NCBI GenBank assembly: GCA_037176725.1
Contig: JAZBRS010000020.1
Coordinates: forward strand, 58,556,001 to 58,620,000
Direction of reading: 5' to 3'
Length of the DNA stretch: 64,000 nucleotides
Origin: Posidonia oceanica
Lineage: Eukaryota; Streptophyta; Magnoliopsida; Alismatales; Posidoniaceae
Positions within the stretch are counted from its first letter, which is position 1; each line of letters starts with the position of its first letter. Made by a program: the position numbers and the translations under genes. The notes under the pieces are model-generated. The model worked only from the letters and a program-made list of their open reading frames with translations. It was not told the DNA's origin and did no database searches. This document shows, one piece after another, positions 9,664 through 59,987 of the stretch.

Positions 9664-11185
9664 CCGAAAGCGGCCCCGTTGCAGATGCCCTTCTCCCACT
9701 TGCACTCGCATTCTCGCCTCCTGCCACATCTTTTCAAATCATCATCGTCATCCTTTCAACTCTTGCATTCTCTCTCTCCAAAATCATCATCGTCATCCTC
9801 TTAAGCATTGTATCCCTCGCCCGGTGATGAAAACCGGAAGTGCTTGCCTGCTCTGGAAAGAGTCACCCTACCTCACCTGGCACTACTCAGATGTCTTAGC
9901 TAGTGAGGGAGCCACCGCCAACGAGGACAGGCGAACCGCTTAATCTCGCAAGGACATACACCTCTGAGGGAGAAAAAATGTTAGGATGTGAGTCTGGAAA
10001 AAGCGAGAGTAAACACCTAGGTTTGGGCACATCCAAGGAACAGAAGACGAAGACAGAAGCCGGCCCTAGAGATAGGGGTGTGCAGTCTAACCCTGCTCCT
10101 TCTACCCATCACACAGCAGACCCAAAACCTAAATCCATTACATTTCAAACACCCTCCTTTTGCCACCAAAATGGGGATAGCAAAAGCCTGAAAAAAAAAA
10201 AAGAGAAAAGCAAAACAACGAACAAAAAAAAAGGAGAAAAGAGATAGAACAAAAAACCAAAAAAAAAGGGGGGAAAAAGCAAGCAAAGCAAAAAAAAAAG
10301 AAGAGGAAAATGCAGCCTGAAAAACACAGGCACTATTATCCCCCATGCTAGAGATCCCCAACATGTCGAGCTTAAAAGAATTTACCACATCCCTTCAAGA
10401 GCAAACATTCACCCTTCTCCTAGCTAGGGGCAGAGAAAGACTGCATGCCTATGAGGGAGAAATCAATCAAAAAAAAAAGAGCTGAAAGAATAGGTGTAGG
10501 TCTTGAGAGTTTGGCCAAATAGCCTGTCCTCACCACACCACCACCTGTACAATGCCAACACCCGTTTCGGAGCGCCACCAGCAAGCCAAGAGTCTAGGTA
10601 GGGCCCAGTGAGTCAGGGACCACTCCCTTCCTTTGCAGCGGGCACCAAAGCACTCCGTATGCTGAGGGCATCCAAGCATACTCATTCATCCAAGCATACT
10701 CATCTATCCAAGCATACTCATCTATCCAAGCATACTCATTCATCCAAGCATACTCATCTATCCAAGCATACTCATTCATCCAAGCATACTACTCATCTTC
10801 ATAAGCATATCACCTGCATCATGCATACATGCATCTTCTTCTATCATTCCTTTTCCTATCAATTTCCCCCGCTCTGCAACGCACTTCGGCCCTGAGACAG
10901 TACTCCTCCCCAGCAGAGCATATCGACGCCACTCGAGCTGCGCTGGTCCAGATCTCCTGCCCGCCCTCGCCCCCGTGTCCGCAAGACTGCTGCAGAATCC
11001 CCCTGCTTATCAGTGCTTAATTGCTATGTTCTGTTATCACTTTGCTAGATGCATATGGAACTACATTTTCAGTCTCAGCTTCTGCTTGTTGACAATGATT
11101 ACATACCTGCGAGATCTGACTGTTTATTGATAGCAGGTACCTTCAAGCTCTGCAGCTATCAGCCTGTGTCTCTGCGATCAGCGCA
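9664..11185 (+). other. Spacer between integrase and the PMD-like ORF in element A
   Basis: No gene is supported. The stretch is conserved in kind with 36740-38338 (C), 56320-57448 (D) and, reversed, 54812-55720 (E). Shared landmarks are GGTGATGAAAACCGGAAGTG near 9825, an A-rich tract at 10190-10310, and the run AGAGTTTGGC..TAGCCTGTCCTCACCAC near 10505. It may hold a promoter or splice signals for the PMD-like ORF, but I see no defined signal. Confidence 0.6.
10670..10793 (+). repeat. 18-bp tandem repeat (about 6.7 copies)
   Basis: The unit is ATCCAAGCATACTCATTC, alternating with a variant ending CATCT. It lies in the spacer before the PMD-like ORF of element A. I see no equivalent array in C, D or E at that place. 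The 18-base period keeps frames open on both strands, so the repeated-peptide ORFs here are by-products. Confidence 0.9.
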
Positions 11186-12388
11186 ATGGGCTTCCCAACT
11201 CTGCTGACTCCCACACACTGCTCGGAAACCCTGCGAGAATGGATCGGCAGGCTCACTCAGGAAGACTGTGAGCAGCTGCGCCTCTGGGGGATCCCAACAA
11301 AACTGCTGAAGGCCGCTGACGTGGAAGTCAGCCGTCACCTTCTGTGTGCCGCCGCAAGATTCTGGAAACCGGCGCACCATGTCTTTCGCTTCAGCAAAAC
11401 TGAGCTAACACCTACACTAGAAGAGGTGCGTCGGATCTGCAGCTTTTCCAAGATCCTGGGGCCGCCTGTTTTCATGAGGCGAGATGGATATCTCAAGGTC
11501 CTGAGCCAACTAACTGGGCTCCCCACTCGAACCTGCCAACAGAAACTAATCTGCACCAGTGGGCCTGAACCTATGCTTCGCCTTGCGCATTTCGATGATA
11601 TCATGAACAAGCGCGCAGAACTCGGAGATGAGCTGTGGCTCCGAGGATTTGTTATCCGCTTCCTGGGCGAGCTGATCTTTACTCATGGCCGACTAACGGT
11701 GGCCATTGAGGTTGCAGAAATTGCATTAGCTGTGGTGACCCAGCACATAGACCTGGCACCAGTTGTTCTAGCAGAGACCTATCGCGGGCTGGACCGCATC
11801 TCTCATCGCTGCCGCCACTTCCACGGTTGCAGAGCACTCATACAAGTCTGGCTGACCGCACACTTAAGGACGAACCTCTTGCGCCCTCAAGTGCATGCCT
11901 TTGAAGCTTACTACAGCAGCGCCCGTGCCAAGACAGAAAAGAGCGTCAAAGAAGAATATGAGAAGCTATCAGCACTGACTGACGACGCTATAACCTGGCG
12001 TATTGTCCCCTCTGTAGCTGAGCCATTTACTGTCTTCTTCAGTGCGCGCGACGCGCGGCTGATCATTATACCAGGCTTCACAGCAGGCGTAGAGTACCAT
12101 CCAATCAGGGTCATGCGCCAATTCGGCTTCCAGCAGGGCGCCTTCATTGACAGTACAGCGCCTGAGCTTCTACAGATGTACCCTCTCAGCACAACTGCCC
12201 CAACCAAGAAGCTCGCTAGTCTGATGCAGCATGGGGTCCAATCAACAGACATTGCAGCTGTGAAAGGTGTAAGATGCACCCTAGAATATGAAGCTGAAGT
12301 CCGAGAGCTCTGGCCTATTTCTGAGGTTCCGCCAGGTGGCCCCCTATTCCCCGACTCCAGGCAGTCGAAAAAGGCCCGAACTGACTAG
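11186..12388 (+). CDS. PMD-like / DUF7745-like protein carried by element A, intact
   Basis: This is an intact 400-codon ORF starting MGFPTLLTPTHCSETLREW and ending in a basic KKARTD tail. The segment FWKPAHHVFRF..TELTPTLEEV (residues about 60-85) is the family signature I recognise from plant mobile domain / DUF7745 proteins, which occur both in transposons and as host genes. No catalytic motif is visible. The same ORF lies after integrase in C, D and E in the sense orientation of each element, and E's copy has exactly the same length. It is the best-kept gene of element A. Its role is unknown. By analogy with host MAIN/PMD proteins it could affect silencing, but that is inference. Confidence 0.78.
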   Translation: MGFPTLLTPTHCSETLREWIGRLTQEDCEQLRLWGIPTKLLKAADVEVSRHLLCAAARFWKPAHHVFRFSKTELTPTLEEVRRICSFSKILGPPVFMRRDGYLKVLSQLTGLPTRTCQQKLICTSGPEPMLRLAHFDDIMNKRAELGDELWLRGFVIRFLGELIFTHGRLTVAIEVAEIALAVVTQHIDLAPVVLAETYRGLDRISHRCRHFHGCRALIQVWLTAHLRTNLLRPQVHAFEAYYSSARAKTEKSVKEEYEKLSALTDDAITWRIVPSVAEPFTVFFSARDARLIIIPGFTAGVEYHPIRVMRQFGFQQGAFIDSTAPELLQMYPLSTTAPTKKLASLMQHGVQSTDIAAVKGVRCTLEYEAEVRELWPISEVPPGGPLFPDSRQSKKARTD

Positions 12389-12689: not shown

Positions 12690-12985
12690 GATCATCATCT
12701 CCAGCGGGCTAGCACCCCAAACTACTCGGCGAAAGGTCCGTCAACCTGTCATCCTCCTCAGCTGATCATCCCCAGCTGAGTCCCCAGCGGGCTAGCACCC
12801 CAAACTGCTCGGCGAAAGGTCCGTCAACCTGTCATCCTCCTCAGCTGATCATCCCCAGCTGAGTCCCCAGCAGGCTGGCACCCCAAACTGCTCGGTGAAA
12901 GGTCCGTCAACCTGTCATCCTCCTCAGCTGATCATCCCCAGCTGAGTCCCCAGCGGGCTGGTACCCCAAACTACTCGTCTGACAA
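12690..12985 (+). repeat. 83-bp tandem repeat (about 3.5 copies) with a hairpin in each unit
   Basis: The landmark CCAAACTGCTCGG recurs at 83-base steps (12721, 12804, 12887, 12970). Each unit holds the inverted repeat CTCAGCTG, a short loop, then CAGCTGAG. Single copies of the same boundary sequence occur in C and D. Confidence 0.88.
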
Positions 12986-13130
12986 GCACGACAATCTTGT
13001 CATCACCCCCTGCTTTCGATGCCAAGGACGCGTTGGCCAGCCCTTGGTGTCATCCCGACACGAGGGGCATCTTTTGATTGCCCCTTGGTATCATTCTTCC
13101 CCTCTTTCCCCTATGATATTCTTGGTGTCA
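12979..13130 (+). other. Conserved hairpin module of element A 3' region
   Basis: Two stem-loops lie in a row. The first is GACAAG, nine bases, CTTGTC (12981-13001). The second pairs CCCTTGGTGTC (13041-13051) with GACACGAGGGG (13057-13067), with one mismatch and one G-T wobble. The same two stem-loops occur in C (39955-40044) and D (58969-59054), and E has the second in reverse. The module marks the border between the PMD-like ORF tail and the repeat arrays. Confidence 0.75.
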
Positions 13131-13800
13131 TAGGATGATTTCTTCTCATCATTACCTCATCCCCTCTTTGCCGGTCGATAAGTCCGATATCTTATCAACC
13201 AATCATTCTCATCATTACCTCATCCCCTCTTTCTCATCATTACCTCATCCCCCTTTTTATCTCATCATTACCTCATCCCCTCTTTCTCATCATTACCTCA
13301 TCCCCCTCTTTATCTCATCATTACCTCATCCCCTCTTTCTCATCATTACCTCATCCCCCTCTTTATTTCATCATTACCTCATCCCCTCTTTGCCGGCCGA
13401 TAAGTCCGATATCTTATCAACCAATCATTCTCATCATTACCTCATCCCCTCTTTATCTCATCATTACCTCATCCCCTCTTTATCTCATCATTACCTCATC
13501 CCCCTCTTTATCTCATCATTACCTCATCCCCTCTTTGCCGGCCGATAAGTTCGATATTTTATCAACCAATCATTCTCATCATTACCTCATCCCCTCTTTA
13601 TCTCATCATTACCTCATCCCCCTCTTTATCTCATCATGATCTCACCCCCTCTTTAGCAATAACTCTCATCATTACCTCATCCCCTCTTTAGCAATAACTC
13701 TCATCATGATCTCATCCCCTCTTTAGCAGTAATTCTCATCATGATCTCACCCCCTCTTTAACAGTAATTCTCATCATGATCTCGTCCCCTCTTATCAACT
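13131..13800 (+). repeat. 24-bp degenerate tandem repeats (TCTCATCATTACCTCATCCC type)
   Basis: About 25 units of roughly 24 bases follow one another, broken three times by a segment with the stem GATAAG, eight bases, CTTATC (for example near 13180 and 13405). The later units change to TCTCATCATGATCTC. The array is open on the + strand from 13135 to 13548 only because of its base composition. Confidence 0.85.
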
Positions 13801-14790
13801 ATCAAGCACTCTCAGGCTGATATCCTAAACTATCAACAATCAAGCACTCTCAGGCTGATATCCTAAACTATCAACAATCAAGCACTCTCAGGCTGATATC
13901 CTAAACTATCAATAATCAAGCACTCTCAGGCTGATAACCTAAACTATCATCTGGGCCGATCCATGGTTAGCCCACAGTTGTGTTATACGGCTGACATTCA
14001 GTAACTGTCCCTTGCAATTGCGGTTTCCAGTTGATAGGTCTGTAAACTATCCGCCAGTTGATAGGTCTGTAAACTATCCACCAGTTGATAGGACTGTAAA
14101 CTATCGTTAGGCTGATATCCTAAACTATCACCAGCAATTGCATTATACGGCTGATATCCAGTAACTATCCATCATCATTGCGCGTTCCAGTTGATAGGCC
14201 TGTAAACTATCCGCCAGTTGATAGGACTGTAAACTATCGTTCCAGTTGATAGGACTGTAAACTATCGTTAGGCTGATATCCTAAACTATCACGCGCAATC
14301 ATGTTATACGGCTGACACCCAGTAACTGTCCCTCGCAATGCCGTTTCCAGTTGATAGGACTGTAAACTATCCGCCAGTTGATAGGACTGTAAACTATCCG
14401 CCAGTTGATAGGTCTGTAAACTATCGCTCCAGTTGATAGGACTGTAAACTATCCGGCATTTGCGTTATACGGCTGATACCCAGTAACTATCACTCATGGT
14501 TTGTGGCTTCCAGTTGATAGGTCTGTAAACTATCCGCCAGTTGATAGGTCTGTAAACTATCCGCCAGCTGATAGGACTGTAAACTATCCCACACAACCAT
14601 GTTATACGGCTGATATCCAGTAACTATCACTCACAACTGCTCTAGGCTGATAACCTAAACTATCACTCTAGGCTGATAACCTAAACTATCACTCTAGGCT
14701 GATAACCTAAACTATCGCTCTAGGCTGATAACCTAAACTATCACTCCCGGTTGATAGGACCGTAAACTATCCGGACGATAAGCCCGTCAC
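13801..14790 (+). repeat. Hairpin repeat array of element A (GATAG/CTATC family)
   Basis: The array begins with a 38-bp unit (landmark AAGCACTCTCAGG, 13804-13930). It continues with 27-bp units holding GATAG, nine bases, CTATC, and with longer units holding GATA..TATC. In two units GATA..TATC becomes GACA..TGTC (13993-14009 and 14314-14330), so both arms changed together. The array ends before the spacer leading to the polypurine tract. Confidence 0.85.
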
Positions 14791-15280
14791 CTTATCACCC
14801 TTTTTAGCGTGACCTTGCCCCAGGAAGGCAAAGTCATGCACCTCCTTTTTTGCGATAGGAGAGTTGGCCTCTCTCCCCTCGCACCCCTCTTTTCTCTTCT
14901 GCTAGCTTGCTCCCCGGGCGGGGACGAGCTGCACCTTGTGTTTTCCCTTCTTTGTCGCGCAAGTCTAGCTTTCCCGCCAGATCCTTGCGCCACATCGCGT
15001 CCATTTAGCATTTTCTCTTGCATCATCTCTGCATCTTCTCAGCTAGCATTGCATACTACTTTAGTATCATTGACCTCACTTGCACAGCATCAGCATTTCC
15101 TTCTAATTGGCTAACTTTTGTACTAACTCTTGCATTGCATTTGCATTAGCACGCATTGCACACTTAGCATTCATCCATCTGCACCCTGCATTTTGCATTG
15201 CGGCAACGGGCTACGATCTTCGGTGCATCCGCCGAATAAGTAGCTCACGCCCATAGCAAATCGCTGCTCCCGCCGGTTAG
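14791..15280 (+). other. Spacer before the polypurine tract of element A
   Basis: No gene is seen. The part near 15190-15275 (GGTGCATCCGCCGAATAAG, ACTCACGCCC) is shared with C (about 41465-41520) and, reversed, with E (about 51340-51410). It is a conserved approach to the polypurine tract. Confidence 0.6.
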
Positions 15281-20350: not shown

Positions 20351-20589
20351 GCCGTTGTTTTGCTTTTTCGCTTGCATTTGCATATAGGGCTGTGATGCTT
20401 ACTGCCCGGAGTTCTCACGAGCCAGGTTTCGCCCGGTTCGGAACACAGACAGCGTAGCTGAGCACTTAGACAGCACGTTTACTTCCTTGCCCTGCGTCTC
20501 TCCACTTAGAGCACACCTTGAGCATTCATTTAGGCATTCATAGGCACATAGGCATTCAATCCCGCATTTCCCTGCGTATGCGAGCGTAA

Positions 20590-20850: not shown

Positions 20851-20959
20851 TGTCTTGTCTTTCTCTTTTCTCCTCGATTTTAAGTGTTTTCGAGTCGAGC
20901 CTCTTCCTCGGATCCAATCGCCGCTAATAGCGAGCCTGATTCCGATCGAGATCGCTACA

Positions 20960-24060: not shown

Positions 24061-25700
24061 CAACCTCTGTTTCTTCTTCAACATGCAGGTTGGGGCCTTC
24101 TGGATCGTCATCATAGGGCCGGAACTTGGGCAATGGTTCATCAATCTCATCCTCACCTGTATCATCCTCCTCTCCATATGCAATAAGTTCTGAGAGGATC
24201 TCTTTCTCAAAAGAAGGGTTTGTGATGTCAAAAGAGTGTATATGTTCCGCTGCCTGGCCCCGGTGATGCTTCAGGATGGTCACGCTTACTCGAGTGTTCT
24301 TATAGCCTTGGTGCGCGACCTCCGTCCCGACAACTTCCTCTGCTTGCTCTGGCCTAACTGACTCTGCCAAGTGCTTTGTTACTGACTCCACTGATGGCCC
24401 TACTAATTCTGTCAATGACACTGCTGATGGCCCTACTACTAAGGCTGCTGATAACTCTGTTATTGATGCTGCTTTCAGCTCTATTGGCTCAGTTGCTGCT
24501 TGGACTGCTAATGCTTCCTCCTCCGCATCTTCTAGTGTACTTGTGGAGGGTATGCCAGACTAGTGGCTGATCTGGGCACTGCCGCTTGCTACACTGCCTG
24601 AGTGAGGCATGTGCTGCACAAACCACCTAGACCCGCCTTCTGGTTGCAGAGTAATGAACTCATCTAGTCTAGGGGAGTCCAACGGTGCTGAGTCTTCTTC
24701 TAAGACCATGATAGAGGCACGGTCTTCCTACAGATGAGGGTCCATAACCATGGCTTTCCCTTTCCTCTCCGCAGTTTGGTGCTCTGCCAGGTCCTCTGCT
24801 ATCGACTTGAGCTGTTCTTGATAAAGTAGCTCTAAGTCTCCCATCCATGAATTGACCTGGGCTTCTACCGCCACTCCTTCCTCCTCATCCATGGGTGAGT
24901 CGATGTAGTAGGCGCTTGGGGCCTGCAACTTTGGCCCAGCTGCTAGATGTATCACTGCCCTTGATATTTGCATTGTCCAGCTCGCGGGCGCGCCTGATTG
25001 CGGCAGCTTCAAGATCGGAGATCCAAACTGACTGGTCAGTGGGGCCGCAGATGGGTGCACTACCAAAGTCACTATTGCAGTTGGAGGGTAGGCAAAGGTG
25101 CTCTTCTGAGGACCCAAGGGTTGGGAGGCTGTGTTGCTCAACTGGACCTCCGCATTTGGTTGTGACAGTGAGGGTGTGGCCTTTGACGCCATGGGGGCCT
25201 GCCACGAGGGTTGCTATTTTACGGCAGGAAGATGTGTAGCGGACGACACTGGCTGCATTTTCTGTGATGCGGCTGCTAAAGTTGGCCGAGTCACGCTGCT
25301 GACTGAATTGACTGACTGTCCCTCCAGAGAGGGTGACAGCGGTACTAATGCGACTGCGACCACAGGTAGACTGCCTGACTGTGCCTGAAGGGGTGTCCCT
25401 GACTTCTGAGCTACCGTTGCTGCTAGTGCTTGTGATATAGATGTGGCTGCAGAAATGTGAAAGCTTGTCAGTGTTGCCACAGGGCCTGCTAAGTTGACTA
25501 CTGTATCTGTTGAGGGTAGGGCCAAACAAACTGACCGAGGTGCCTCCGTGCTGATCAGAGCTTTGCGACCAGTTGGGACTGCCTCTACTGCGCCAGACTG
25601 CTGCTCATCCGAGTAGTAGTCCTCAATGCAGACCCAATCTTCTACCGGCACCGCGGCTTGACTGTCAATCGATCCCAGAATACCTGCACTGGTGAAGTTA
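24061..25700 (-). pseudogene. pol: Element B acidic linker between protease and reverse transcriptase
   Basis: The stretch is rich in Ala, Ser, Thr and Glu and matches 4838-6430 of A in its conserved end (EVAHRGYKNTRVSVTILK-like, SFEKEILSELIAYGEEDD). It is split into several frames. No fold is recognised. The linker is unusually long, about 500 residues. Confidence 0.7.
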
Positions 25701-26960
25701 GTGAGGTTCCTAGGGATGACCGCCTTCTGATCCTTCAACTGAAAGCAGTCATCTTCGTTGGGCTTGGGCTCATAACCAAGGCCTTCTGATTTCCTCCGCT
25801 CCACTGCTACGATCGGCTCTACGATCCCCTGACCGTGACACCCAAGCGGTGTACCCTTAACGTAACCCCATCTGTGGCATACATTCTCGACCATTCGAAA
25901 GGGGTTATTGTGAATGGCCAAGGAGTTGACGCGTTCAAGATCAGGAATGAAGTTAACCGGCTCACACTGATTAACGCGATACAAAGCATTGGAGGTTTTA
26001 GGGTCAAAAGGGATGGTTTGTGAAGAGACAGGGGAGATTGCCTCGATTCGCTCCTTCTCAAAGTTCTCTGCCATGACGACAATGACATCATCATCGTGGT
26101 GGTACTTTATCATGCGATGGAGGGTCGAGGGAAGGACCTGATGCTTGTGGAGCCAAGGGTGCCCAAGTAGGAAGTTAAAGTTTGGCTTCAAGTCGACGAC
26201 ATAGAATTCTACATCGAATATGACTGGGCCAATGGCAAGAGGAATAATCAGGATCCCTAGAGCGTCATGGTGGGTATTGTCAAAAGCTATCATTCCTTTT
26301 ACGGCTGGTGTGATATCCTCGGCTTTGAATCCGAGCTTTGTTATAGTACGCAAAGGGCAGACATTAAGGCTTGACCCGTTATCAACCAGCGTGAGAGGAA
26401 TGCGAAAGTTTTTGAATTGAACCGTGACGAACAAGGGTTGGTTGTGATTAATCCCCGCCGGAGGTAGTTCATCACTAGTAAAAGAGATGATCTGAGACTC
26501 CACAATCATCCCTACCATGCTTTCTAAGGCTGAAGGCTCAATAGACTGGGACACACGAGCAGCTTGGAACACATGAAGAAAAGCTTCGTGGTGTTCGGCA
26601 GAGGTGTGAATCAGGTCCCAGATGGAAATGTCAGCTATAACCTTCTTAAATTGGGAAGTTATGTCAACCTTAGGTTGGTTCTTCTTGGTAGGAGGAAGGG
26701 TAGCTTTGGTGGCAAGCTCTAAGGGGACAATCATGGGGGATTGGCTAAAGGCCTGGCTTGCTATAGGTTGGGCAGAGGTTTGGCTTACTACAGGTTAGCT
26801 AGAGGCCTGGTCTGCTATGGGTTGGCTAGAGGGTGGGGGCATAGCAGGTTCTGGGTAGTTTGGCCTAACTACCGGTGCTGGGGGTCTATAGACCCTCCCT
26901 GATCGCGTTACTTCCACACACATTTATGTGGCGTAACTGTAAGGTACACGATGGGTGTCT
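25701..26960 (-). pseudogene. pro: Element B aspartic protease region
   Basis: A 506-codon open stretch (26734 down to 25214) contains the full protease. The active-site loop VDNGSSLNVCP (DNG near 26376-26384) and LLGHPWLHKHQ are present. The frame is unbroken here, unlike in A, and runs into the start of the linker. It is the longest intact piece of B's pol. Confidence 0.82.
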
Positions 26961-31619: not shown

Positions 31620-31990
31620 CGTAAAACACGCAAAACGGTGCAAGAAACGAAAGTCGGTACACAAAATGATGAAAGAAACAGAGTAGGCACGTAAAACGGT
31701 GCGAGAAACAAAGCAAGCAAGCAAAACGATACAAAAACAAAGCAGACACGCAAAATAGTGCAAGAAACAGAGCGGGCACGCAAAACGGTGCAAGAAACAA
31801 AGTCGACATGCAAAACAGTGCAAGAAACAAAGCAGGCATGCAAAACGGTGCCAAAAACAAAGCAAGCATGCAAAATGGGTCAAGAAACAAAGCCAGCATG
31901 CAAAACGGTGTAAGAAACAAAGCCAGCAAGTAAAACGGTGCAAGAAACAAAGCCGGCACGCAAAACGGTGCAAGGAACAACCGAAACAAA
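31620..31990 (-). repeat. 30-bp tandem repeat in LTR B (about 12 copies)
   Basis: On the + strand the unit is GCAAAACGGTGCAAGAAACA plus about ten bases, with an exact 30-base step at many places (for example 31811 and 31841). Three long minus-strand frames arise because 30 is a multiple of three. Confidence 0.88.
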
Positions 31991-32880
31991 ACATCGAAAA
32001 GCCATGCAGATGCAAATGTAAAACATGTGAAGGAGGAGAGCAAGAAAAGTAAGGAGAGGCAAGCAGTGTAAGTGTGAGAACAAACACTACTTAAGGACCA
32101 CACAATGCAGGTGTGAAGACCTACAAAGGGGAAAGGAAGCATGTGGAGGGATCACCACTATTCTGTGACTGTTTCCCACCAAAGTGTCCAACAATATGTC
32201 TCGCATGCTGCTAAAAGCTCACGGTGCAATCGGATTATGGAAAAAGGGGGAAGAAGGTCGCAATCAGTAGTGAATCCAAGGAAAACTCAACCCAAAGACA
32301 CCCAGAGTACGCAAAAAGAGGGAATAGAATTGATAAGCGAGAAGAGGAAGTCCTAATCTATATGCTCGGAAAGCGTGATGTGAAAACAACGCATGTAATG
32401 CAAAGGATGTGCAAAAGATGTTGTGCAGGAGTTCAGAAGGACTTACCTTGGAAATCTAAAGCCTGATCAGCGATGAACTTGGTCAGCATAAGAGTGCGCT
32501 CCACTAGGGTGGCCCAGGTAACTTGGTTGTGAAGATTTGGCGGTGATCGGAAGATATCCAGGCTTCAAGGCAGAAGGCCCAAGGGCCAGGGGAAAAGAAG
32601 GGATCTAAGTGTAAAAGGGATCCTAGGGGTGTGCAAAACAGGTCCTCCCACATACATGGGAGCTAAATGTGCTTAAAAGTGTGCAAAAAAGCTAAGTGCA
32701 ATGATGCATGGGTGCAATGCATGCAAGAATGCAAAAAAGGACCTAAGTGTGATGTTTTAGAAAAGTTAAGGACCTATATGCAATGTTTTTGAAAAGTTGA
32801 GGGTCTAGATGCAAATAAAATAAAATGCAGGGTCTGAAATGCAATTTAATAAGGTAAAGATGCAATTAAATGATTTTTCT

Positions 32881-33240
32881 AAACATGTAGAGGACGAAAG
32901 TGCAATTTTAAATCATGTAGGGGCTAAAATGTAATTTTATAAGGAAAAATATGTAGTTAAATGATTTTTATAAACATGTAGAGGACTAAAATGCAATTTT
33001 AAATCATGCAGGCGCTAAAATGCAATTTTATAAGGTAAAATATGCTGGTAAATGATTTTTGTAAACATGCAGAGGACTAAAATGCAATTTTAAATCATGC
33101 CGGGTCTAAAATGTAATTTTATATGGTAAAATATGCTATTAAATGATTTTTGTAAACAAGCAGAGGACTAAAATGCAATTTTAAATCATGTAGGGGCTAA
33201 AATGCAATTTTATAAGGAAAAAATGCAAATAAATGATGCT
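32881..33240 (-). repeat. 91-bp tandem repeat in LTR B (about 4 copies)
   Basis: The landmark AAACATGTAGAGGAC recurs at 32881, 32972, 33063 and 33154, a step of exactly 91. The same repeat appears at 63821 and 63912 in the last LTR. Confidence 0.9.
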
Positions 33241-36200
33241 GTGCATGCATGTAGAGGACCAAAGTGCAAAAATGAAATAAAGCAGGATAAAAGTGCAATG
33301 CAATAAGGTAAAATAAGAAATTAAATGAATTAATCAACTAAACAGAGGATTGAATTGCAAATAAAATAAACAGGAGGACTAAAAAGCAACGCAATTAGAT
33401 AAAAAGAGGCATTTAAATGACATTTAACAACCATAGGACTTAGATGCAAAATAAAATAGCTACTGGACTGGAAAATAAAGAACAAAAAAGATATTTGAAC
33501 TAGAGCAGGACCATCATGCAAATAAAATAAGTAACTGGGCTAGAAATAAAGAAAAAACTAAAAAACTGTAACTGCAGAGGACTAACAAGTAATAAAAAAA
33601 CTTGCAGGGCTGAAATTAAAAGAAAACTAAAGAGTTTTATACAGCAGCAGGATTAACATGCAAATAAAGGAAAACACAGACTTTTTATGCAATTTCATAT
33701 GGTTTTTATTCAGATTTAAATGAATCTTAAACGATGGCAGGACTGGAAAGCAAATAAGCGAAGTAGCAAGATAAAAATGCAATTTCATGGAAAAATTGAT
33801 AAGTTAAGGAAAAATAACAGTGATGGCAAATGAAAGGAATTATAATATTCAGAACACTGTAGCACAGGGAACCAGAGCTCGGTGCCGGAGAAGAGGGGCT
33901 GCTCAGACGATGCTGACGGGCTGAGGAGGTGTGCTAGAGGTGCACGGAGGCTGGAGACGCGTCGTCGTGCCATGACGGGCGCTGAAGTGGACCGGAGAAG
34001 GCGGCGGAGTTCTGCAGAAGCTTCTGGAAGCAAACCGGAGAAGGGAAGCGTCGACGGTGGAAACGGAGGGTAGGACGGCGTTGCTGGAACCTCCACGAAG
34101 CTCGGACGATCAACGGTGAGGGACGAGTGGGCCCAGAGCGAGGTCTGCGTGCAGAGGCTTGCCGGAGAAGACAGGTCCTTGGCGGCGTTGACCTTGCGCG
34201 ACACAGACCAGAACCCTAATCTAAAAGGTCGAGGAGCAAGAAGAGAAGAAATCTAAGCTATGGGTGAAGGTGGATACCTGTTTCGACGGCCAGTGCACTC
34301 CCCCGACGTAGGTGGCTTTTCCAGGCGACGGTGAGGATGGTCTGGCTACTGGAGGCATCCCCGGTGGCTCGCGAAGATTGGGATCCACTCCAGGTGATGC
34401 TCCAGTGCTTGCTGGATGCTCGGGCATGAGTTTGAAGGCTGGCGGAAGAAATGGGATTTTTTGGGTGCACAAAGACTGCCGGAGGTAGGAGAGTGAAGTG
34501 TTACTCCTCGAGTTGAGCGGAGGGCTCCAGTGGACTTCTAGGTGTCTGGTGAAGGTTGTTGGAGGGTTGAATTGGGCTGTGAAGGCCTGTGGTGGAAGTT
34601 GGCAAGCTGGGTGGATTTTGCACAGAATCGGGGGTAACTGTTTGTGGTGGGTTGTCGGGACGGTGGTGGGTTGCTGGGCTAAAGCTTGGGTGGTTGGAAA
34701 GCTGGGGTTTCGGTGAGTTGCTGGGAGGAATTTGGGAAGGTTCGGAGGTCTGTGGTGTTGGGAATTTTGAAGGAAGGTGGAGTTGGGTTCTGGTGAGGAA
34801 TTTCAAGTACTTTGGGGTGAATCTAGGTTGGTTTGAGGTGTGGAAGGGTGGAGAAGGATTGTTGGGATTTCAGGTGAAGTTGGGGATGGATTTTGATGGA
34901 TTGGAGGCCTGGGACGGGTCTGGATTTCAGAGCGAAGGAGGAGGAGGAAGATGCTGAATTTTCAGAGGGAAGGAGGAGAGAATTGCTCTGGTTCTCACGC
35001 TCTCTCAGGCTCTCTCTCAGATGGCAAAAGGTGTGGAAAGAGGGACGAAGATGCTGGTTTTATTGGGAGGCAATGGAGCTAGGTGTGAGCTGCTGATGGA
35101 TTGAAAATCCACAAAGCGGGGAGACTGCAGCTGATGGCTACGACAGATGAAGCAATGGGAATTAATGCTACCGAAGAAAGGGCTGAGAGAAGGTGAGAGA
35201 GGAGAGGTGCTGTGGATCGATTGGATGGAGGGGGAGATTTGGATTTCAAAAGGAGGGGGGAATGCTGTTGCAGCTTCGCGGGAGAGAAGAAGAAGCAGAA
35301 GAAGAAGGAAGAAGAAGGAAAGGAGGGAAGGAGGGAGAAGCAGGCAGGTGGGCCGGGCTTCGTGCGGGAAAAGAAAGAGAAAGAAAAAAAGAAAAGAAGG
35401 AAAGGAGGGGAGGAGGTGTAGTGGGCCGGGCCGGCAAAAGAAATGGAAAAGAAAGGTAATAAAGAAAAGGAAGGAGAAAGAAAGAAGAGAAAGGGGAAAA
35501 AAAAGATAATAAAAATAAAAAGATTTAGGAATGTTTTAGGGTGGTTGCTTTTAAGTTAGGATTCTTAATAAGATTTTTAAAGGACTGTTTTTTAATTAGT
35601 TAATTAGGGTTGAGAGGGGTTTTAGCTTTGACTTTAGTTTTTATGATTTTTCTTAAGTTTTCTTTAAATTGTTTTTCTTTTTAGTTTGTTTTAAATGTTT
35701 GTTAAGTTTTTTAATTGTTTTTAAGTTAAGTTTTTCTTGTTAAGTTTTTCCTCTTTTTCTTTTTAATTTAGTGTTTTAAACTGTTTTAAGTTTTAGTTGT
35801 TTCCTTAGATTTGTTAATTGTTTTTTAATTACTTATCCTAGGGTTTTTTAATTGTTTCTTCTTTCCTAGGATTTGCTTTTGATTATTTTTAACAGGGTTC
35901 TTGGCTTTTTTTGTTTTGATTATATTTTTGTTTTGTTTGTTTTTTAATAGCATTTTCCTCTTGTTTTTTATATTTTTTTTAGATTGCTTTCTTAGTTAGT
36001 TTTTTTTAGTTGGTTTTAGTTAGGCTTTTCTTTTAATTGTTTATCCAAACTTTTAATTATTTGTTTTTAAGGTTTTGGCTTGTTTCTCTTTTGTTTTCCT
36101 TTTTTAATTGGAGTTTTAAAGGTTTAATGGAAGAAAGGAAAAGAAAAAGAAGAGGAAGAAGAAAAGAAAGAAATGGAGAAAGAAAGAAGAAAGAGAGGGG

Positions 36201-38338: not shown

Positions 38339-39539
38339 ATGGGTTTCCCTACCTTGGTGACTCCAACACATTGCTCTGAGACTCTCTGAGGATGGATCGC
38401 CATGCTCACTGAAGCTGATCGTGAAAAGCTGAGTTTGTGGGGCATCCCACCCAGACTTCTAAAAGCTGCTGATGTGGAGGTCAGTCGACATCTCTTGTGT
38501 GCTGCTGCAAGGTTCTGGAAACTAGCGCACCATGTCTTCTGTTTCGGCAGGACAGAACTGACGCCTACACTGAAGGAAGTGCGCCGAATCTGCGCCTTCT
38601 CCACTCATGGGACCTACCGTGTTCATGAGGCGTTCTGGCTATGTCGCCGTCCTAAGACAACTCACAGGGCTCTCTGCACAAAGCTGTGAGAAAAGACTGG
38701 TTTGCATCGACGGGTCCATACCTACGCTCCGTCTGAACTATTTCGGGGATGTCTCCAAGAAGCGCGCCGCACTGGGAGATGAATTATGGCTTCGCGGCTT
38801 TGTCACCCGCTTCCTAGGCGAGCTAATCTTTAGTCATGGCCGGATGACTGTCACTATTGAAGTTACGGAGATCGCCCTTGCTGTGGTGACCTGCCAAATC
38901 GACCTGGTACCTGTCGTCCTAGTTGAGACGTACTGCAAACTGGACCGTATTTCGCACCACTGCCGCCACTTTCATGGCTGCGAAGCTCTGGTACAAGTGT
39001 GGTTGGTCGGACATCTGGAGGTAGACATCCTGCACCCCCAGAAACATGCATTTGAAACATACTGCAGCAACGGCCACGCCAAGACTATCAAGACTTTCCT
39101 CGAGGAGTACGAAAGCCTGGAACAGCTGACAGATGATACAGTAACTTGGCATATCATCCCATCTGCAGCAGAGCCATTCACCCTTTTCTTCAACGCCCGC
39201 AACATGCGACTGGTTGTCCTGCCAGGGTTCACCGAAGGTGTGGAGTATCACCCCATCTGGGTCATGCAGCAATTTGGTCTCTGCCAAGGGGCATTTGTTG
39301 ACAGCACCGCGCCAAAGCTACTCCTGCCCTATCCTTTCAGCACAGTTGCAGCCACAACAGAGCTGGCCGACCTCATGCGTCATGGCGTGAAATCAACAGA
39401 CATTGTAGCCGCGAGGGGCTCAGGATGCACTCCTGAGTATCTGACTGAAGTACAGGGGCTCTGGCCGATTAATGAGATCCCACCTGGTGCGCCTCTGTTT
39501 CCTGACGCCAGGAGGTCGAAGAAGGCCCGGACTGACTAG
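38339..39539 (+). pseudogene. PMD-like gene of element C (broken)
   Basis: The ATG at 38339 begins MGFPTLVTPTHCSETL. A TGA at 38387 replaces an Arg CGA codon seen in A. A 2-base deletion near 38600 (after AFS) shifts the frame. The rest, 38607-39539, is open for 310 codons to KKARTD and TAG. The total length is 1201 bases against 1203 in A, so only these lesions break it. The family signature FWK.AHHVF.F..TELTPTL is present. Confidence 0.82.
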
Positions 39540-40094
39540 GGTGTCTACATCTGCGTACCCCTCTTTTGAGTCTTGCTGTACTCTGTTCAGCCTGTTATAG
39601 GCATGTAACCAAGACTTGGTGAATACAAGGATGTTTTGTGCCATTTGCTTGTACGTTTGGTTTGCTTTCCATAATACAATGCATACATGGTCTCTTGCAA
39701 TCACATCCTCAGTATACTGCTTTAGCTTCGCAAGTCCAACCCCTCAAGGACCACGAGGAAGCACTCTCGGATCCCAACGGCTCACAAGCTCAGAAGCAAC
39801 AACCAACACTCTCAGCACCAAGGGAAGCTACTAGAAGACCCTGCGTTCCACTTGGGTGCCAAAATCTCTACGGACCAGCACCGTCAACACGGGCAAAGCC
39901 ACCAAGCGCTCTCGGCTGGATCTCCGCTGGGCTAGTAGCCATAACTACCCGTTTGACAAGCACGTCAACCTTGTCTATGTTCGTCATTTTTTCGATGCCA
40001 AGGGTGCTTCGGCTATCCCCTGGTATCATCCCTGATACTAGGGGCATCTTTTTTGCTGCCCCGTGGTATCGCATCTGCCGTTGCATCCGTTTCT
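39540..40094 (+). other. 3' region of element C with the conserved hairpin module
   Basis: No gene is seen. Stem one is GACAAG, CACGTCAAC loop, CTTGTC (39955-39975). Stem two pairs CCCCTGGTATC (40017-40027) with GATACTAGGGG (40034-40044), with one G-T wobble. Both correspond to stems in A and D. Confidence 0.72.
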
Positions 40095-40990
40095 TCCGGT
40101 CCGGTCTTGATAAGGCTTGCACTTATCATTCCTGGCCTCTTCTCGGTCTTGATAGGGCTTGCACCTATCATTCCTAGCGGTCCGGTCTTGATAAGGCTTG
40201 CACTTATTATTCCTGGCCTCTTCCCGGTCTTGATAGGGCTTGCACCTATCATTCCTGGTGGTCCGGTCTTGATAAGGCTTGCACTTATCATTCCTGGCCT
40301 CTTTCCGGTCTTGATAGGGCTTGCACCTATCATTCCTAGCAGTCCGGTCTTGACAAGACTTGCGCTTGTCATTCCTGGCCTCTTCCCGGTCTTAATAGGG
40401 CTTGCACCAATCATTCCCAGTGGTCCGGTCTTGATAAGGCTTGCACTTATCATTCCTGGCCTCTTCCCGGTCTTGATAGGGCTTGCACCTATCATTCTTG
40501 GCAGTCCGATCTTGATAAGGCTTGCACTTATCATTCCTGGCCTCTTTCTGGTCTTGATAGGGCTTGCACCTATCATTCCTGGTGGTCTAGTCTTGATAAG
40601 GCTTGCACTTATCATTCCTGGCCTCTTCCTGGTCTTGATAGGGCTTGCACCTATCATTCCTAGCAGTCCGATCTTGATAAGGCTTGCACTTATCATTCCT
40701 GGCCTCTTCCCGGTCTTGATAGGGCTGGCACCTATCATTCCTGGCGGTCCGGTCTTGATAAGGCTTGCACTTATCATTCTTGGCCTCTTCCCGATCTTGA
40801 TAGGGCTTGCACCTATCATTCCTAGTGGTCCGGTCTTGATAAGGCTTGCACTTATCATTCCTGGCCTCTTCCCAGTCTTGTTAGGGCTTGCACTATCATT
40901 CTTGGCGGTCCGGTCTTGATAAGGCTTGCACTTATCATTCCTGGCCTCTTCCCGGTCTTGATTGGGCTTGCACCTATCATTCCTGGTCCC
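40095..40990 (+). repeat. 81-bp tandem repeat made of two alternating hairpins (about 11 copies)
   Basis: Each 81-82-bp unit holds two half units. One has GATAAG, GCTTGCA, CTTATC and the other GATAGG, GCTTGCA, CCTATC. At 40352 a half unit reads GACAAG, ACTTGCG, CTTGTC, and near 40994-41015 the same type recurs. Both arms differ together between half units. The period being near a multiple of three leaves long frames open on both strands (288 and 330 codons), which I do not take as genes. Confidence 0.9.
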
Positions 40991-41542
40991 TTGCCGAATT
41001 GACAAGACTTGCGCTTGTCATTCCCGGCTTCCCCCAATTGACACCCGTCACCTTGTCTGGCATCCTCTTCTTTGGGCTGATAACCCTAATATCCGGTGAA
41101 GAGTCCGTCAACTCCTTGGACTGATAACCCTAATTATCCAGTGGTGAGTCCATCAACTCCTTGGGCCGATAACCCAAACTATCCAGCAATGAGTCCATCA
41201 ACTCATTATTCATTACATCAGCATTACACATTAGGTAACAGTACCAACATCAATGCTAGATAGCAGCATCAACATTACGCACACAATCATTGCATGCTTT
41301 CCCTAGTAGGGTCGCATCTCACATCGTGTCAACATGCATCGCCTGCATCTCCCCCATGGAGTTCAGCGTGGCAGACACTAGCGCAGGTTTATTTTAGCAT
41401 TAGCATCGCATCATCGTTGCATTGCATTACATCTGCATTCACATCTGCATTTGCATTTGCATTTTGGCGACGAGTCTCGATTTCTAGCGCATCCGTCAGA
41501 ATAGTAACTCACGCCCACATACTTCGCGCTCGCTGGTTCGGG
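40991..41542 (+). other. End of array and spacer before the polypurine tract of element C
   Basis: The first part has three units of GATAACCCTAA..TATC type (41085-41190). The rest is unique spacer with GCATTTGCATTT words near 41440, shared with A. No gene is seen. Confidence 0.6.
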
Positions 41543-51318: not shown

Positions 51319-51988
51319 TCCTTACACCGGCAGGAGCACAAAGTTGTTGTAGGCCTGAGTCACTTATTCGGCGGATGCACCGAAAATCATAACTTGTTGT
51401 CAAAATGTGAATGCAGATGTGAATGCAGATGCAGTGCAATGCTGATGTATGAAGCAATGTTGATGCTAAAGTAAAACCTGTGCTAATGTTTGCCGCGATG
51501 AACCCCGCTGGGGAGATGTGGGCGATGCATGCAGTGTAGATGATTATGAGTTGATAGACTCATCACCGGATAGTTAGGGTTGTCGGCTCAAGGAGTTGAC
51601 GGACTCGTCACCAGATAGTTAGGGTTATCGGCCCGAAGAAAGGACACCTGACAGGGTGATGGATGTCATCTGGGTAGTTAGAACTACCAAACCAAAGAAG
51701 ATACCGAGGGCAGCAAAATAAGATGCCCCTGGTATCAAGGGGATGATACCAGGGGACAACCGAAGCACCCTTGGCATCGAAAGAAGAGTTGGACAGTTAT
51801 GACGGGTGTCGACCGAGCAATTAGGGTTGCCAGCCAAGAGGGGAGAAAGATAACTTGTCCTCACTTGAGGAAACAAGCAGACGGCTAGAGAGGCGTGGAA
51901 TAAAAGGGGCAAAATTCTTGCGTGGAAGAAAAGGGGGCAACTTTTCTACTGAGAAGGCAAGCAATAAAAGGGGTACACGATAATTGAT
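51319..51988 (-). other. Spacer of element E with a perfect 11-bp hairpin
   Basis: No gene is seen. CCCCTGGTATC (51726-51736) and GATACCAGGGG (51745-51755) form a perfect stem. It is a second copy of the conserved module, on the polypurine-tract side of the array. GGTAGTTAGAACTACC near 51669 is another short palindrome. Units GATAGTTAGGGTTATC near 51614 match the end of the array in C. Confidence 0.68.
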
Positions 51989-52990
51989 AGGTTTCAGACC
52001 CATCGACCGCGAAAGAGGCCAGGTATGATAAGTTCCAGACTTATCAACCAGAGAAAGCCAGGAATGATAAGTACAAGACTTATCAACCGGAGAAAGCCAG
52101 GAATGACAAGTACAAGCCTTATCAACCAGAGAAAGCCAGGAATGATAAGTACAAGCCTTATCAAACCAGAGAAAGCTAGGAATGATAAGTACAAACCTTA
52201 TCAACCGGAGGAAGCCAGGAATGATAAGTACAAGCCTTATAAACCAGAGGAAGCCAGGAATGATAAGTACAAGCCTTATCAAACGGAGAAAGCCAGGAAT
52301 GATAAGTACAAGCCTTATCAAACCAGAGGAAGCCAGGAATGATAAGTACAAGCCTTATCAAACCGGAGAAAGCCAGGAATGATAAGTACAAGCCTTATCA
52401 ACCGAAGGAAGCTAGGAGTGATAAGTACAAGCCTTATCAAACCAGAGAAAGCCAGGAGTGATAAGTACAAGCCTTATCAACCAGAGAAAGCCAGGAATGA
52501 TAAGTACAAGCCTTATCAAACTGGAGATAGCCAGGAATGATAAGTACAAGCCTTATCAAACCGAAGAAAGCCAGGAGTGATAAGTACAAGCCTTATCAAA
52601 CTGGAGAAAGCCATGAGTGATAAGTACAAGCCTTATCAAACCGGAGAAAGCCAGGAGTGATAAGTACAAGCCTTATCAACCAGAGAAAGCCAGGAATGAT
52701 AAGTACAAGCCTTATCAAACCAAAGAAAGCCAGGAGTGATAAGTACAAGCCTTATCAAACCAGAGAAAGCTGAGAGGTGATAGGTTTCGGACCTACCGAC
52801 TGTAAAGGAAGAACTGATAAGTTTCGGACTTATCAACCGCAAAGGAAGAACTAATAAGTTTCGGACTTATCGACTGCAAAGGGTTGAAAAGTGATAAGTT
52901 TCGGACTTATCGACTGCAAAGGAGGTGCTGATAAGTTTTGGACTTATGAGATGTTGATAAGTTTCAGACTTATCGACTGCAAAGGAGATA
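51989..52990 (-). repeat. 39-40-bp hairpin repeat array of element E (about 19 copies and a variant tail)
   Basis: On the + strand most units hold GATAAG, TACAAGC, CTTATC. Read on the minus strand the loop is GCTTGTA, nearly the GCTTGCA loop of element C, so the arrays are related. From about 52790 to 52990 the units are GATAAG, TTTCGGA, CTTATC. At 51989 and 52777 the stems are of GATAGG type with imperfect partners. Confidence 0.88.
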
Positions 52991-53608
52991 GGGGCACCAA
53001 AACTCGAAGGCAGAGCGAAAATCGCGGATGGGCCCGCGACAGTTAGGCATGTCAGCCTAGATGCAGCTGAAGGTGCGATACCATGGAGCAGCAAAAAAGA
53101 TGCCCCTAGTATCAGGGATGATACCAGGGGACAGCCGAAGCGCCCTTGGCATCGGAAAGCAACGGATATAGAAAAGGCTAACGTGCTTGCCAAACGAGTA
53201 GTTAGAGTTACCAGCCTGGAGGAAGCTCCAGCTGAGAGTGCTCAGTGGCCTTGCTTGATTTGATGGTGTTGGTCTATAGAGATTCTGGCATCCAAATGGA
53301 ATGCAGGGTCTTCTTGTAGTTTCGCTTGGCGTTGAGAATGTTGGTAGTTGCTTTTGAGTTTGTGAGCTATCAGGATCTGATAGTGCCCTCCTCATGGCTC
53401 TGAGGGGTTCGATGCCTGAAACTAAAGCAGTATGCTAAAGATATGATTGTGCGAGATCATGCATGCATCAAGTTATGGAAAGCAAACCCAATACACAAGC
53501 AGACAACAAAAAATATCCTTGCATTAATAAAGTCTTGGTTACATGCCTGTAGTAGGCTGAACAATGTACAGTAAGACTCAAAAGGGGACATGCAGTTGTA
53601 CAAATGCC
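52991..53608 (-). other. 3' region of element E after the PMD-like pseudogene
   Basis: No gene is seen. A conserved hairpin module pairs CCCCTAGTATC (53103-53113) with GATACCAGGGG (53120-53130). The part near 53500-53600 matches the tail after the PMD-like ORF of C (39590-39650). Confidence 0.65.
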
Positions 53609-58648: not shown

Positions 58649-59110
58649 GGCACCTATGCAGCTGCTTGTTTAGTTTCTTTCCAAGTTATACTATATCTTT
58701 TGGCCTGCCACACGCGTGTAATCAACAGTTCTATCAATGCAAAAGCATTTTGTGCCATCTGCTTGCACTTCAAGACCACTCAATGCATTTCATATCCTTG
58801 CCAATCATACCTTAAGGCCTCTGGCCAGACTTGCTGCCAAAATGATGCAAGAAAGTCCTCAGCAATCTACCCAGATGCCAGAATAACTGCAGACCCATGC
58901 CGTCAAGTCAAGCCATCAAGCGTGCCCGCTCGAGTCTCCACCGGGCTGGTACCCCAAACTGCTCGTTTGACAAACACGTCAGTTTTGTCTGTCCTTCGCT
59001 TTTTGATGCCAGGGGCACCTCGGCTGTTCCCTGGTATCATCCTGATACCAAGGGCATCTTTTTTGGATGTCCTGTGGTATCATTCCCTATCATTCCCCGT
59101 CGATATACCT
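58649..59110 (+). other. 3' region of element D with the conserved hairpin module
   Basis: No gene is seen. Stem one is GACAAA, CACGTCAGT, TTTGTC (58969-58989), the counterpart of GACAAG/CTTGTC in A and C. Stem two pairs CCCTGGTATC (59029-59038) with GATACCAAGGG (59044-59054). Confidence 0.74.
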
Positions 59111-59987
59111 GGATGTCATAGGTTCCAATCTTTCCGGTTGATGGCCGTTAAACATCTCTTTCTGGCTGATGGCCCTCGTTAAACATCCCTTTCCGACTGA
59201 TGACTGTTAAACATCTCTTTCCGGCTGATGGCCGTTAAACATCTAAACTCTTTTTGGCTAACGACCGTTAATCATCCAATAATCCCTTCCTGGCTGATGA
59301 CCGCTAATCATCTAATCGCCCTTTCCAATTGATGACTGTTAATCATCTAATCACCCTTTCCGGCTGATGGCCGTTATACATCACTTTCTAGCTGATGACC
59401 GTTAATCATCTAATCAAACTTTCCGGCTGATGACCGTTAATCATTTAATCAATCTTTCTGGCTGATGACCGTTAATCATCTAATCACTCTTTCCGATTGA
59501 TGACCGTTAATCACCTAATCAATCTCTCTCCAGCTGATAATCGTAAACTATCTGCTTTCGGCTGATATCCAGTAACTATCACTTGCAATTGCGCTTTCGA
59601 CTGATATCCAGTAACTATCACCTCCGGCTGATAACCGTTAACTATCTCCTTCCGACTGATAACCTGTAAACTATCTACTTTCGGCTGATATCCAGTAACT
59701 ATCCCCCCGTAATTGCATTTTCCAGCTGATATCAGTAACTATCACCCTTTCGGCTGATATCCAGTAATTATTGCTTCAACTGATATCCAGTAACTATCAC
59801 TCTGGTTGATAGGACCATAAACTATCGCTCTCGGTTGATAGGACCATAAACTATCGCTTTCGGTTGATAGGACCGTAAACTATCACTCTCGGTTGAGAGG
59901 ATCGTAAACTATCGCTCTCGGTTGATAGGACCGTAAACCATCGCTTCTGGTTGATAATATCATAAACTATAGCTCCCGGTTGATAGG
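59111..59987 (+). repeat. Hairpin repeat array of element D (GATGA/TCATC then GATAG/CTATC)
   Basis: Units of about 35 bases hold GATGA, CCGTTAA-like loop, TCATC from 59130 to 59520. The array then changes to GATA..TATC and GATAG, GACCATAAA, CTATC from 59530 to 59987. The latter resembles the array of A. The end at 59987 falls within a unit. Confidence 0.86.

Follow-up and report, generated by a model that had tools for sequence, protein, structure and literature searches.

The window analyzed here (64,000 nucleotides, or 64 kb, of Posidonia oceanica; assembly GCA_037176725.1, contig JAZBRS010000020.1, positions 58,556,001 to 58,620,000 of the forward strand) is plant-like DNA made up of nested long terminal repeat (LTR) retrotransposons, four of which (A, C, D, and E) carry tandem arrays of short units with complementary arms downstream of a PMD-like region (Table 1). 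The PMD-like open reading frame (ORF) is open in A and C, the PF10536 match in C (30.5 bits) being under the Pfam cut-off of 34.9; the PMD regions of C, E (minus strand), and D are related to that of A, and no ORF of at least 150 amino acids runs across the PMD region of D or E. In A, the PMD ORF is in sense orientation, and the arrays, the polypurine tract GGGAGGGGCA, and an LTR starting TGTTGACACCCC come after it. The original prediction had placed all such arrays between the PMD-like ORF and the polypurine tract. In all four elements, the arrays do fall in the interval from the PMD-like region to the 3′ LTR, but the polypurine tract of D is not visible, because its array abuts the LTR. At 59948-59990, the D array runs straight into the LTR, and the polypurine tract seen in A, with the ∼500 bp before it, is missing there.

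The gag-pol of element A encodes an RNase H (RT_RNaseH), a second RNase H-like domain (RVT_3), which we take to be of the archaeal type, and then the integrase. According to the available portion of one study (PMC6317226), a second, archaeal-type RNase H between the first and the integrase marks the Ogre/Retand lineage, and a PMD extra ORF is present in 57% of Ogre elements. Element A has both the second RNase H-like domain at this place and the PMD ORF (in C, the match is below the cut-off), and A, C, E, and D have arrays between the last ORF and the 3′ LTR, as in the 3′ untranslated region (UTR) of Ogre-type elements. Because of the PMD frequency reported for Ogre, the host elements look like PMD-bearing Ogre-type LTR retrotransposons of the Tat clade of Ty3/gypsy.

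The main array of C was predicted to alternate between two hairpin forms, and it does so. TRF gave a period of 81 and 11.0 copies and also found the half-period of 42 bp; counting arms and loop, 9 of the 23 half-units read GATAAG-GCTTGCA-CTTATC and 7 read GATAGG-GCTTGCA-CCTATC. The third predicted form, GACAAG-ACTTGCG-CTTGTC, occurs twice, at 40352 and, just beyond the 81-bp array, at 41001; in both copies, the loop ends are also switched, from G..A to A..G. The other five half-units are private variants: in four, an arm change lacks compensation (one of these leaves a G·U pair), and in the fifth, only the loop differs. Related arrays are found in E, A, and D, as predicted, with the arm types named for A and D, and with E reading GATAAG-GCTTGTA-CTTATC in sense. 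Among the 18 units taken from the main array of E, which has periods of 40 and 79, 14 have this sequence, two differ in the loop only, and two have an uncompensated arm change. A coding reading of the C array was rejected: it has open frames on both strands (320 and 334 amino acids), but the periods of the E array are 40 and 79. No protein with E ≤ 0.001 was found for these frames among the 8000 and 7997 candidates scored. At 39957-41017, the 81-bp period gives long open frames on both strands of C, and false gene annotation is likely there.

The claim that the arms change in compensating pairs was examined with our own script, modeled on R-scape (not R-scape itself), whose null redistributes substitutions along a FastTree tree. 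The 113 units (79 distinct), all from the four elements within the window, were hand-picked from candidate arms and sequence, and each set of identical units entered the tree tests as one. Left out were (i) D 59168 (insertion), D 59658, a decayed E unit near 52945, and the units at A 12701-12977; and (ii) the first leader unit of A, C, D, and E and the loose units C 41040 and E 51667, the leader copies being tested apart. Across all 113 units, the arm helix summed to 120.2, against −2.4 ± 25.9 for the null, and 0 of 300 nulls reached it. C alone gave 19.3 against 0.3 ± 2.9 (p = 0.001; 22 of 23 half-units had the required loop length, 13 of them distinct, and one with a 10-base loop was dropped), and the C and E main arrays together gave p = 0.002 (40 of 41 units). 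The two varying pairs of C rank 1 and 6 of 378 column pairs, whereas the other four stem pairs rank 157-317, because they hardly vary. The arms therefore exceed the null, as the prediction required, but the paired changes within C are about two events, spread by array copying (∼1.5 per reconstruction, versus 3 that break a pair and 1 to G·U). All four multi-copy haplotypes of the C and E main arrays are fully paired, whereas no private arm change is compensated. Taken by itself, the C array for the most part thus matches the refuting case named in the original prediction, two old types spread by copying; support beyond C comes from the variety of unit types across the four diverged elements and from the leader structures, which lie outside the arrays.

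In the A and D units, the bases directly upstream of GATA complement bases in the supposed loop, giving a second helix (S1) that crosses the arm helix (S2). The S1 pairs read CAGT..ACTG, CGGT..ACCG, TGGT..ACCA, AGG..CCT, GGG..CCC, and TGGG..CCCA, and the helix order is S1-S2-S1′-S2′, with an S1 of 3-4 bp, an S2 of GATA(G/AG) with 4-6 bp, and connecting loops of 1-2 nt (L1), 0-1 nt (L2), and 3-5 nt (L3, often A-rich). This order, with a short L1 and a longer L3, is the usual shape of an H-type pseudoknot. Unit types I-V (72 units, 67 distinct) were read in one S1 register each. Of the 61 units of types I, II, IV, and V, 48 have a complete S1 if G·U pairs are allowed (40 if only Watson-Crick pairs count), and these 48, together with a leader structure described below (H0), would have two crossing helices in H-type order. 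GATA(AG)/(CT)TATC recurs across most unit types; S2 is long in types VI and VIe, which lack S1, and short in types I, II, and IV, but type V combines a 6-bp S2 with a 3-bp S1. For the main arrays of C and E (types VI and VIe), the sequence suggests a simple hairpin of 6-7 bp without S1 (41 of 113 units); an S1 mostly of G·U pairs (GGUC/GGCU) can be drawn for them, which offers little covariation to test because the loop is almost constant. The predicted single stem-loop in RNA or cruciform in DNA thus stands in part: pairing is kept as the letters change, but the partly supported RNA picture has a plain hairpin only in the main arrays of C and E; for A and D, and for other parts of C and E, it is that of an H-type pseudoknot. 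The DNA cruciform was dropped as first choice, since S1 and S2 cross, which favors single-stranded RNA.

Both helices covary beyond the tree-based null. In types I-V, S1 summed to 68.3 against 0.7 ± 12.4 (0 of 400 nulls) and S2 to 67.2 against 0.7 ± 15.2 (1 of 400), and none of six slid S1 registers was significant (p = 0.19-0.37); element A alone gave 0 of 400 nulls for S1. The paired variants of S1 are CAG/CTG, CGG/CCG, TGG/CCA, AGG/CCT, and GGG/CCC. Under a CpG-aware tree null, S1 and S2 each gave 0 of 1000 in types I-V, and, with type III removed, S1 again gave 0 of 1000 and S2 gave p = 0.017. A scan of 378 column pairs, whose statistic is blind to base pairing (67 distinct units, 31 columns, structure-guided alignment in the chosen register), placed predicted pairs at ranks 1, 2, 4, 5, and 6 (two of S1 and three of S2), and in a structure-blind MAFFT alignment, an S2 pair ranked first (E = 0.47). 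Moreover, the consensus S1 of 10 element-by-type groups has 26 of 30 pairs Watson-Crick (permutation p = 0.0007) and is complete in 6 of the 10 (p = 0.005). In type I taken separately (20 units, 10 distinct), whose paired changes are all in S1, 1 of 500 shuffles and none of the slides reached the observed covariation score.

A leader segment common to A, C, D, and E precedes the arrays and contains the putative pseudoknot H0 (CGT/ACG with GACAAG/CTTGTC) and an 11-bp hairpin. A second leader segment of E is present at 51690-51836 (minus strand), between its array and its LTR. In an alignment of the five copies covering four helices (S1 and S2 of H0, the hairpin, and an invariant outer GATGCC/GGTATC), 97.7% of 128 cells are paired. 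In three pairs, both partners have changed, and 21 of 500 shuffles give as many: (i) GACAAA/TTTGTC in D, (ii) TGTC/GACA in the A hairpin, and (iii) CGG/CCG in the second E copy, a T-A to G-C transversion. RNAalifold gave a covariation term near zero (+0.52) for this alignment and no pseudoknot, which is outside its model.

Pairing is near perfect in A, where the PMD ORF is open: in its 28 units of types I, II, and V (three of them upstream type V units), 83 of 84 S1 cells are Watson-Crick and one is GU, and S2 is paired in 112 of 112. It is partly decayed in D and E, which show no long PMD-region frame; S1 has 43 Watson-Crick, 8 GU, and 6 AC of 57 cells in types I and IV of D, and 22 of 33 Watson-Crick in E (types I, II, IV, and V). 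This pattern, from four elements, which are few, would fit pairing that was kept in active lineages and lost afterwards. Relative to the PMD frame of A, a gapped alignment shows 1 stop in C, 3 in D, and 6 in E. PMD codon differences between the elements are 0.12-0.18 at second and 0.41-0.50 at third positions, which points to far divergence under coding constraint while the pairing stayed.

Nested folding z scores (60 shuffles each) were −11.1 sense and −8.3 antisense for the C array, −6.9 and −7.2 for the E array, and −2.8 to −4.7 sense and −1.9 to −4.2 antisense for the leaders. Sense matches to a pseudoknot descriptor numbered 32 in A, 27 in C, 29 in E, and 15 in D, against shuffle means of 6.6, 11.0, 11.8, and 3.5 (10 shuffles each). 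The density of stems of at least 6 bp is highest, at 4.1-4.8 per 100 nt, in the main arrays of both C and E and in the type V array of E; it is 3.2 at A 12701-12977, 3.0 and 1.3 in the LTR arrays 32825-33328 and 63770-63997, and does not exceed 0.8 in the remaining 15 of the 20 arrays examined, including the A and D arrays of types I-IV. The LTR array 32825-33328 has a period of 91, and its density of 6-bp stems compares with 0.6 per 100 nt in shuffles. The array at A 12701-12977, with an 83-bp period, consists of GGGCTAGCACCCC-like units, possibly decayed type II-like modules. An Rfam search (cmscan, whole window, E ≤ 1) gave no match at or above the gathering score; of two miRNA-family matches below it, mir-50 (E = 0.67) falls on the E type V array.

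Table 1. Coordinates of the repeat arrays, leader structures, and protein-coding features in the window.
Feature	Position	Strand	Details
C main array, 11 copies of 81-bp dimer of hairpin half-units (type VI)	40097..40984	+	TRF, units, S2 covariation
C hairpin GACAAG-ACTTGCG-CTTGTC	41001..41019	+	just outside 81-bp array; same variant as at 40352
C type II units, each with GATA/TATC	41074..41183	+	GGG/CCC (41074), GGA/CCC with one mismatch (41118), TGGG/CCCA (41162)
E main array, 40-bp hairpin units (type VIe)	52018..52770	-	GATAAG-GCTTGTA-CTTATC in sense
E type V units, 5 of 7 taken (others: 52045, 52004)	52779..52979	-	S1 CAG/CTG, CGG/CCG, three CAG/CCG with mismatch; S2 GATAAG/CTTATC or GGTAGG/CCTATC
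E single unit, AGG/CCT (TAGG/CCTA) with GACA/TGTC	53038..53058	-	one base off fixed type II register; scored as mismatched in tests
A type V units at 13172, 13394, 13539	13172..13563	+	CGG/CCG or CGG/TCG with GATAAG/CTTATC-like S2
A mixed array, types I, II, III, one type V (14772)	13814..14796	+	5 type III units, without full S1
D array, types IV (GATGA-CCG-TCATC), III, I	59135..59971	+	partly decayed
C leader pseudoknot H0	39950..39975	+	CGT/ACG with GACAAG/CTTGTC
C leader hairpin, 11 bp	40017..40044	+	CCCCTGGTATC/GATACTAGGGG
A leader pseudoknot H0	12975..13001	+	TCGT/ACGA with GACAAG/CTTGTC
A leader hairpin	13041..13067	+	TGTC/GACA vs TATC/GATA in others (paired change)
D leader pseudoknot H0	58964..58989	+	paired change GACAAA/TTTGTC
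D leader hairpin	59029..59054	+	
E leader pseudoknot H0, first copy	53171..53196	-	S1 kept (CGT/ACG), S2 decayed (GGCAAG/CTTTTC)
E leader pseudoknot H0, second copy	51792..51815	-	CGG/CCG; one pair transverted on both sides vs CGT/ACG
E leader hairpin, first copy	53103..53130	-	second copy 51726-51755
PMD-like ORF, A	11120..12388	+	PF10536 E 8.7e-20; 422 aa open, stop to stop
PMD-like ORF, C	38574..39539	+	PF10536 E 2.8e-07; 321 aa open
RT_RNaseH then RVT_3, A	7633-8676		domain matches
Integrase (rve), A	8680-9660		domain match

The 3′ LTR of A (15347-20960, ∼5.6 kb) seemingly lies inside the pol of a further element, B (minus strand). A reading of B as lacking PMD and array was dropped, as its pol is seemingly interrupted at ∼20,950 by this LTR; because of the interruption, the corresponding part of B would fall beyond the left end of the window. 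The protease ORF of B contains a G-patch domain at 25217-26794 (minus strand; PF01585, E 2.7e-06). Searches with the PMD alignment found no relative among PDB sequences, searches of viral contigs with the PMD protein and alignment found none outside the window, and none was found among genome contigs; a search of the viral contigs with the array pattern gave three single matches, which we take as chance.

Complementary arms recur both in tandem and in the leaders, and both helices covary beyond tree-based nulls, S1 to a modest degree after correction for the choice of register. On balance, we consider it probable that the stretch from the PMD region to the 3′ LTR encodes a domain of the sense (genomic) RNA that is selected for its structure. 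Such a domain would start with the leader (H0 and the 11-bp hairpin, both twice in E) and continue with tandem arrays of compact stem modules, either pseudoknots or simple hairpins; the pairing would form in RNA and be maintained by selection while a lineage is active, and dead copies would decay after activity ends. As a repeated cis-acting RNA element, the domain might gather an RNA-binding protein, and its most likely job, which is a guess, would be the nuclear export or the stabilization of genomic RNA that retains its intron, in the way that transport elements serve animal retroelements. Export or stability is placed first on two grounds: functional introns have been reported in Ogre elements, and the retroelement MusD uses a pseudoknot-bearing transport element.

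Several results weigh against a selected RNA domain. First, the second helix is not general: types VI and VIe lack S1 altogether (41 of 113 units), all 11 type III units have it mismatched, and 13 of the 61 others have it only in part, so that the H-type order is lacking in types III, VI, and VIe (52 units). Second, the statistical support for S1 is uneven. Because the register had been picked by eye, the search was repeated inside the null, where the chosen register, the best of 112 searched, reached just p = 0.037, which makes the S1 covariation modest; it weakens when A is removed (p = 0.04), and one slid register reaches p = 0.02 when A is tested by itself. The 378-pair scan yielded no single significant pair (best E = 0.083), and four of nine predicted pairs rank 50, 66, 71, and 315, the fourth S1 pair lowest. 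In the MAFFT alignment, a gap leaves S1 pair 1 misaligned and lost, and S1 pair 2 comes only ninth among 351 pairs. The count of Watson-Crick pair types is not above the null for S1 or S2, and the two type I pairs in which both partners changed are nothing unusual (262 of 500 shuffles reach that number). Third, the signal is not strand-specific and is partly weak in folding: S1 cells include 13 GU versus 12 AC, G·U thus not exceeding A·C and giving no strand signal; nested folding z is modest for A 13975-14775 (−2.7 sense, −1.8 antisense) and unremarkable for D (−1.3 and −1.2). The pseudoknot descriptor is loose (1.1-1.3 matches per 100 nt in array regions, 0.3-0.8 in gag-pol strands), and its antisense matches also exceed the shuffle means in A, E, and D, some of them pairing with a neighboring unit.

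The strongest rival to an RNA domain of use to the element is selection at the level of amplification, which we regard as possible but distinctly less probable. Structured RNA would make reverse transcriptase pause and jump, so that foldable units are duplicated and paired variants spread without use to the element. The fully paired multi-copy haplotypes of the C and E main arrays, set beside their uncompensated private variants, would fit such a process, and unit amplification during reverse transcription could give the same pattern as selected function. However, all four elements have the leader pseudoknot and hairpin, which are not part of the arrays and show three paired changes among only five copies, and arrays such as A 13206-13655, LTR 31627-31980, and gag-pol 5965-6096 are not hairpin-rich; the leader, in particular, speaks against amplification as the whole story.

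We hold it unlikely that the arrays are a neutral minisatellite, in which old palindromic units were copied around and the covariation reflects a few ancient types and CpG decay. In its favor, two types repeated as an 81-bp dimer do make up most of the C array, CpG sites account for many S1 letters, S1 can be mismatched (CAG/CCG, for example), and the register-corrected support for S1 is modest. Nevertheless, neither helix was matched under the CpG-aware null in types I-V, paired CpG decay leaves AGG/CCT versus GGG/CCC and CGT/ACG versus CGG/CCG unexplained, and a third-position PMD divergence of 0.4-0.5 should have eroded unconstrained pairing. A little less probable still is quasi-palindrome correction, a mechanism in which template switching between arms copies a mutation from one to the other during replication or reverse transcription. 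Nearly all paired changes are of the A-T to G-C type, and the arms are short and close, which would suit it, but many changes in C, D, and E stay uncompensated, which implies that correction is infrequent in chromosomal DNA, and it would need to act in reverse transcription only, on two crossing helices. Very improbable, finally, are DNA palindromes bound by a dimeric protein (PMD-like, or a host GATA/I-box factor) or DNA cruciforms: the recurrent GATA(AG)/(CT)TATC would suit such binding, but a dimer that reads sequence keeps the letters, whereas here the letters change and complementarity stays, and a cruciform cannot hold S1 and S2 together, since they cross. The involvement of Arabidopsis PMD proteins in silencing, as given in the accessible parts of PMC7156037 and PMC5418596, would be in keeping with protein binding.

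The original prediction knew of no description of such a system, which stands for the paired arms, as far as the literature searched shows, but not for the arrays. Tandem arrays in the 3′ UTR of Ogre/Tat elements are known from the available parts of PMC7004042, PMC6317226, and PMC11963269; Gmr9/GmOgre minisatellites are described in soybean (PMC3305785, likewise in part), and Macas et al. 2009, as quoted in PMC7004042, treated the hypervariable 3′-UTR tandem repeats of Tat/Ogre. Like the arrays here, the Tat/Ogre repeats lie in tandem between the coding region and the 3′ LTR, form several interleaved unit families, and belong to the same lineage. The main texts of PMC7004042 and PMC3305785 do not contain the terms hairpin, palindrom-, or secondary structure; to these descriptions, the present analysis adds the paired-arm and pseudoknot structure. 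Tandem repeats between POL and the 3′ LTR of Retand-lineage elements, as far as described in the portion of PMC11963269 available, occupy the same interval in a related lineage, but their extra ORFs are antisense and mostly TRP28, unlike the sense PMD ORF here; its main text lacks "hairpin," "inverted repeat," and "secondary structure." An 82-bp Gypsy/TAT 3′-end repeat in Coffea may be similar, as its title alone suggests. We found no description of the paired-arm or pseudoknot structure of such elements in the titles or abstract beginnings searched, a coverage outside which most of the subscription literature falls, and, among the matches listed for literature with the short array motifs, all look unrelated by title. 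Known, then, are tandem arrays at this place in Ogre/Tat, and new would be their paired-arm and pseudoknot structure.

By analogy, the arrays may be compared with other structured RNAs. The tobamovirus upstream pseudoknot domain consists of consecutive short H-type pseudoknots in the 3′ UTR of a plant-expressed RNA, but it has few modules, versus dozens here, and belongs to a different kind of element. The IAP RTE, MusD MTE, and MPMV CTE, the last of which sits before the 3′ LTR, are cis-acting structured RNAs of retroelements, as the present arrays would be; we claim no sequence likeness to them, the modules here come in many tandem copies, and an export role would follow by analogy only. The MusD MTE has pseudoknot and kissing-loop motifs and aids the export of full-length RNA, according to the available part of PMC12786077.

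The accessible portion of PMC7004042 reports that Ogre/Tat 3′-UTR arrays seed plant satellite DNA, and the authors of the soybean study state, in the part available (PMC3305785), that the possible functions of the arrays, if any, are not known. A broader and more doubtful proposal is that Ogre-type minisatellites are tandem pseudoknot or hairpin arrays acting as a multivalent RNA handle (for export, stability, or packaging of genomic RNA that retains its intron), in which case a part of the plant satellite DNA derived from them would have begun as selected RNA structure. If the arrays are selected RNA folds, the question of their function becomes testable, and a tandem, multi-copy pseudoknot domain would be added to the known cis-elements of LTR retroelements.
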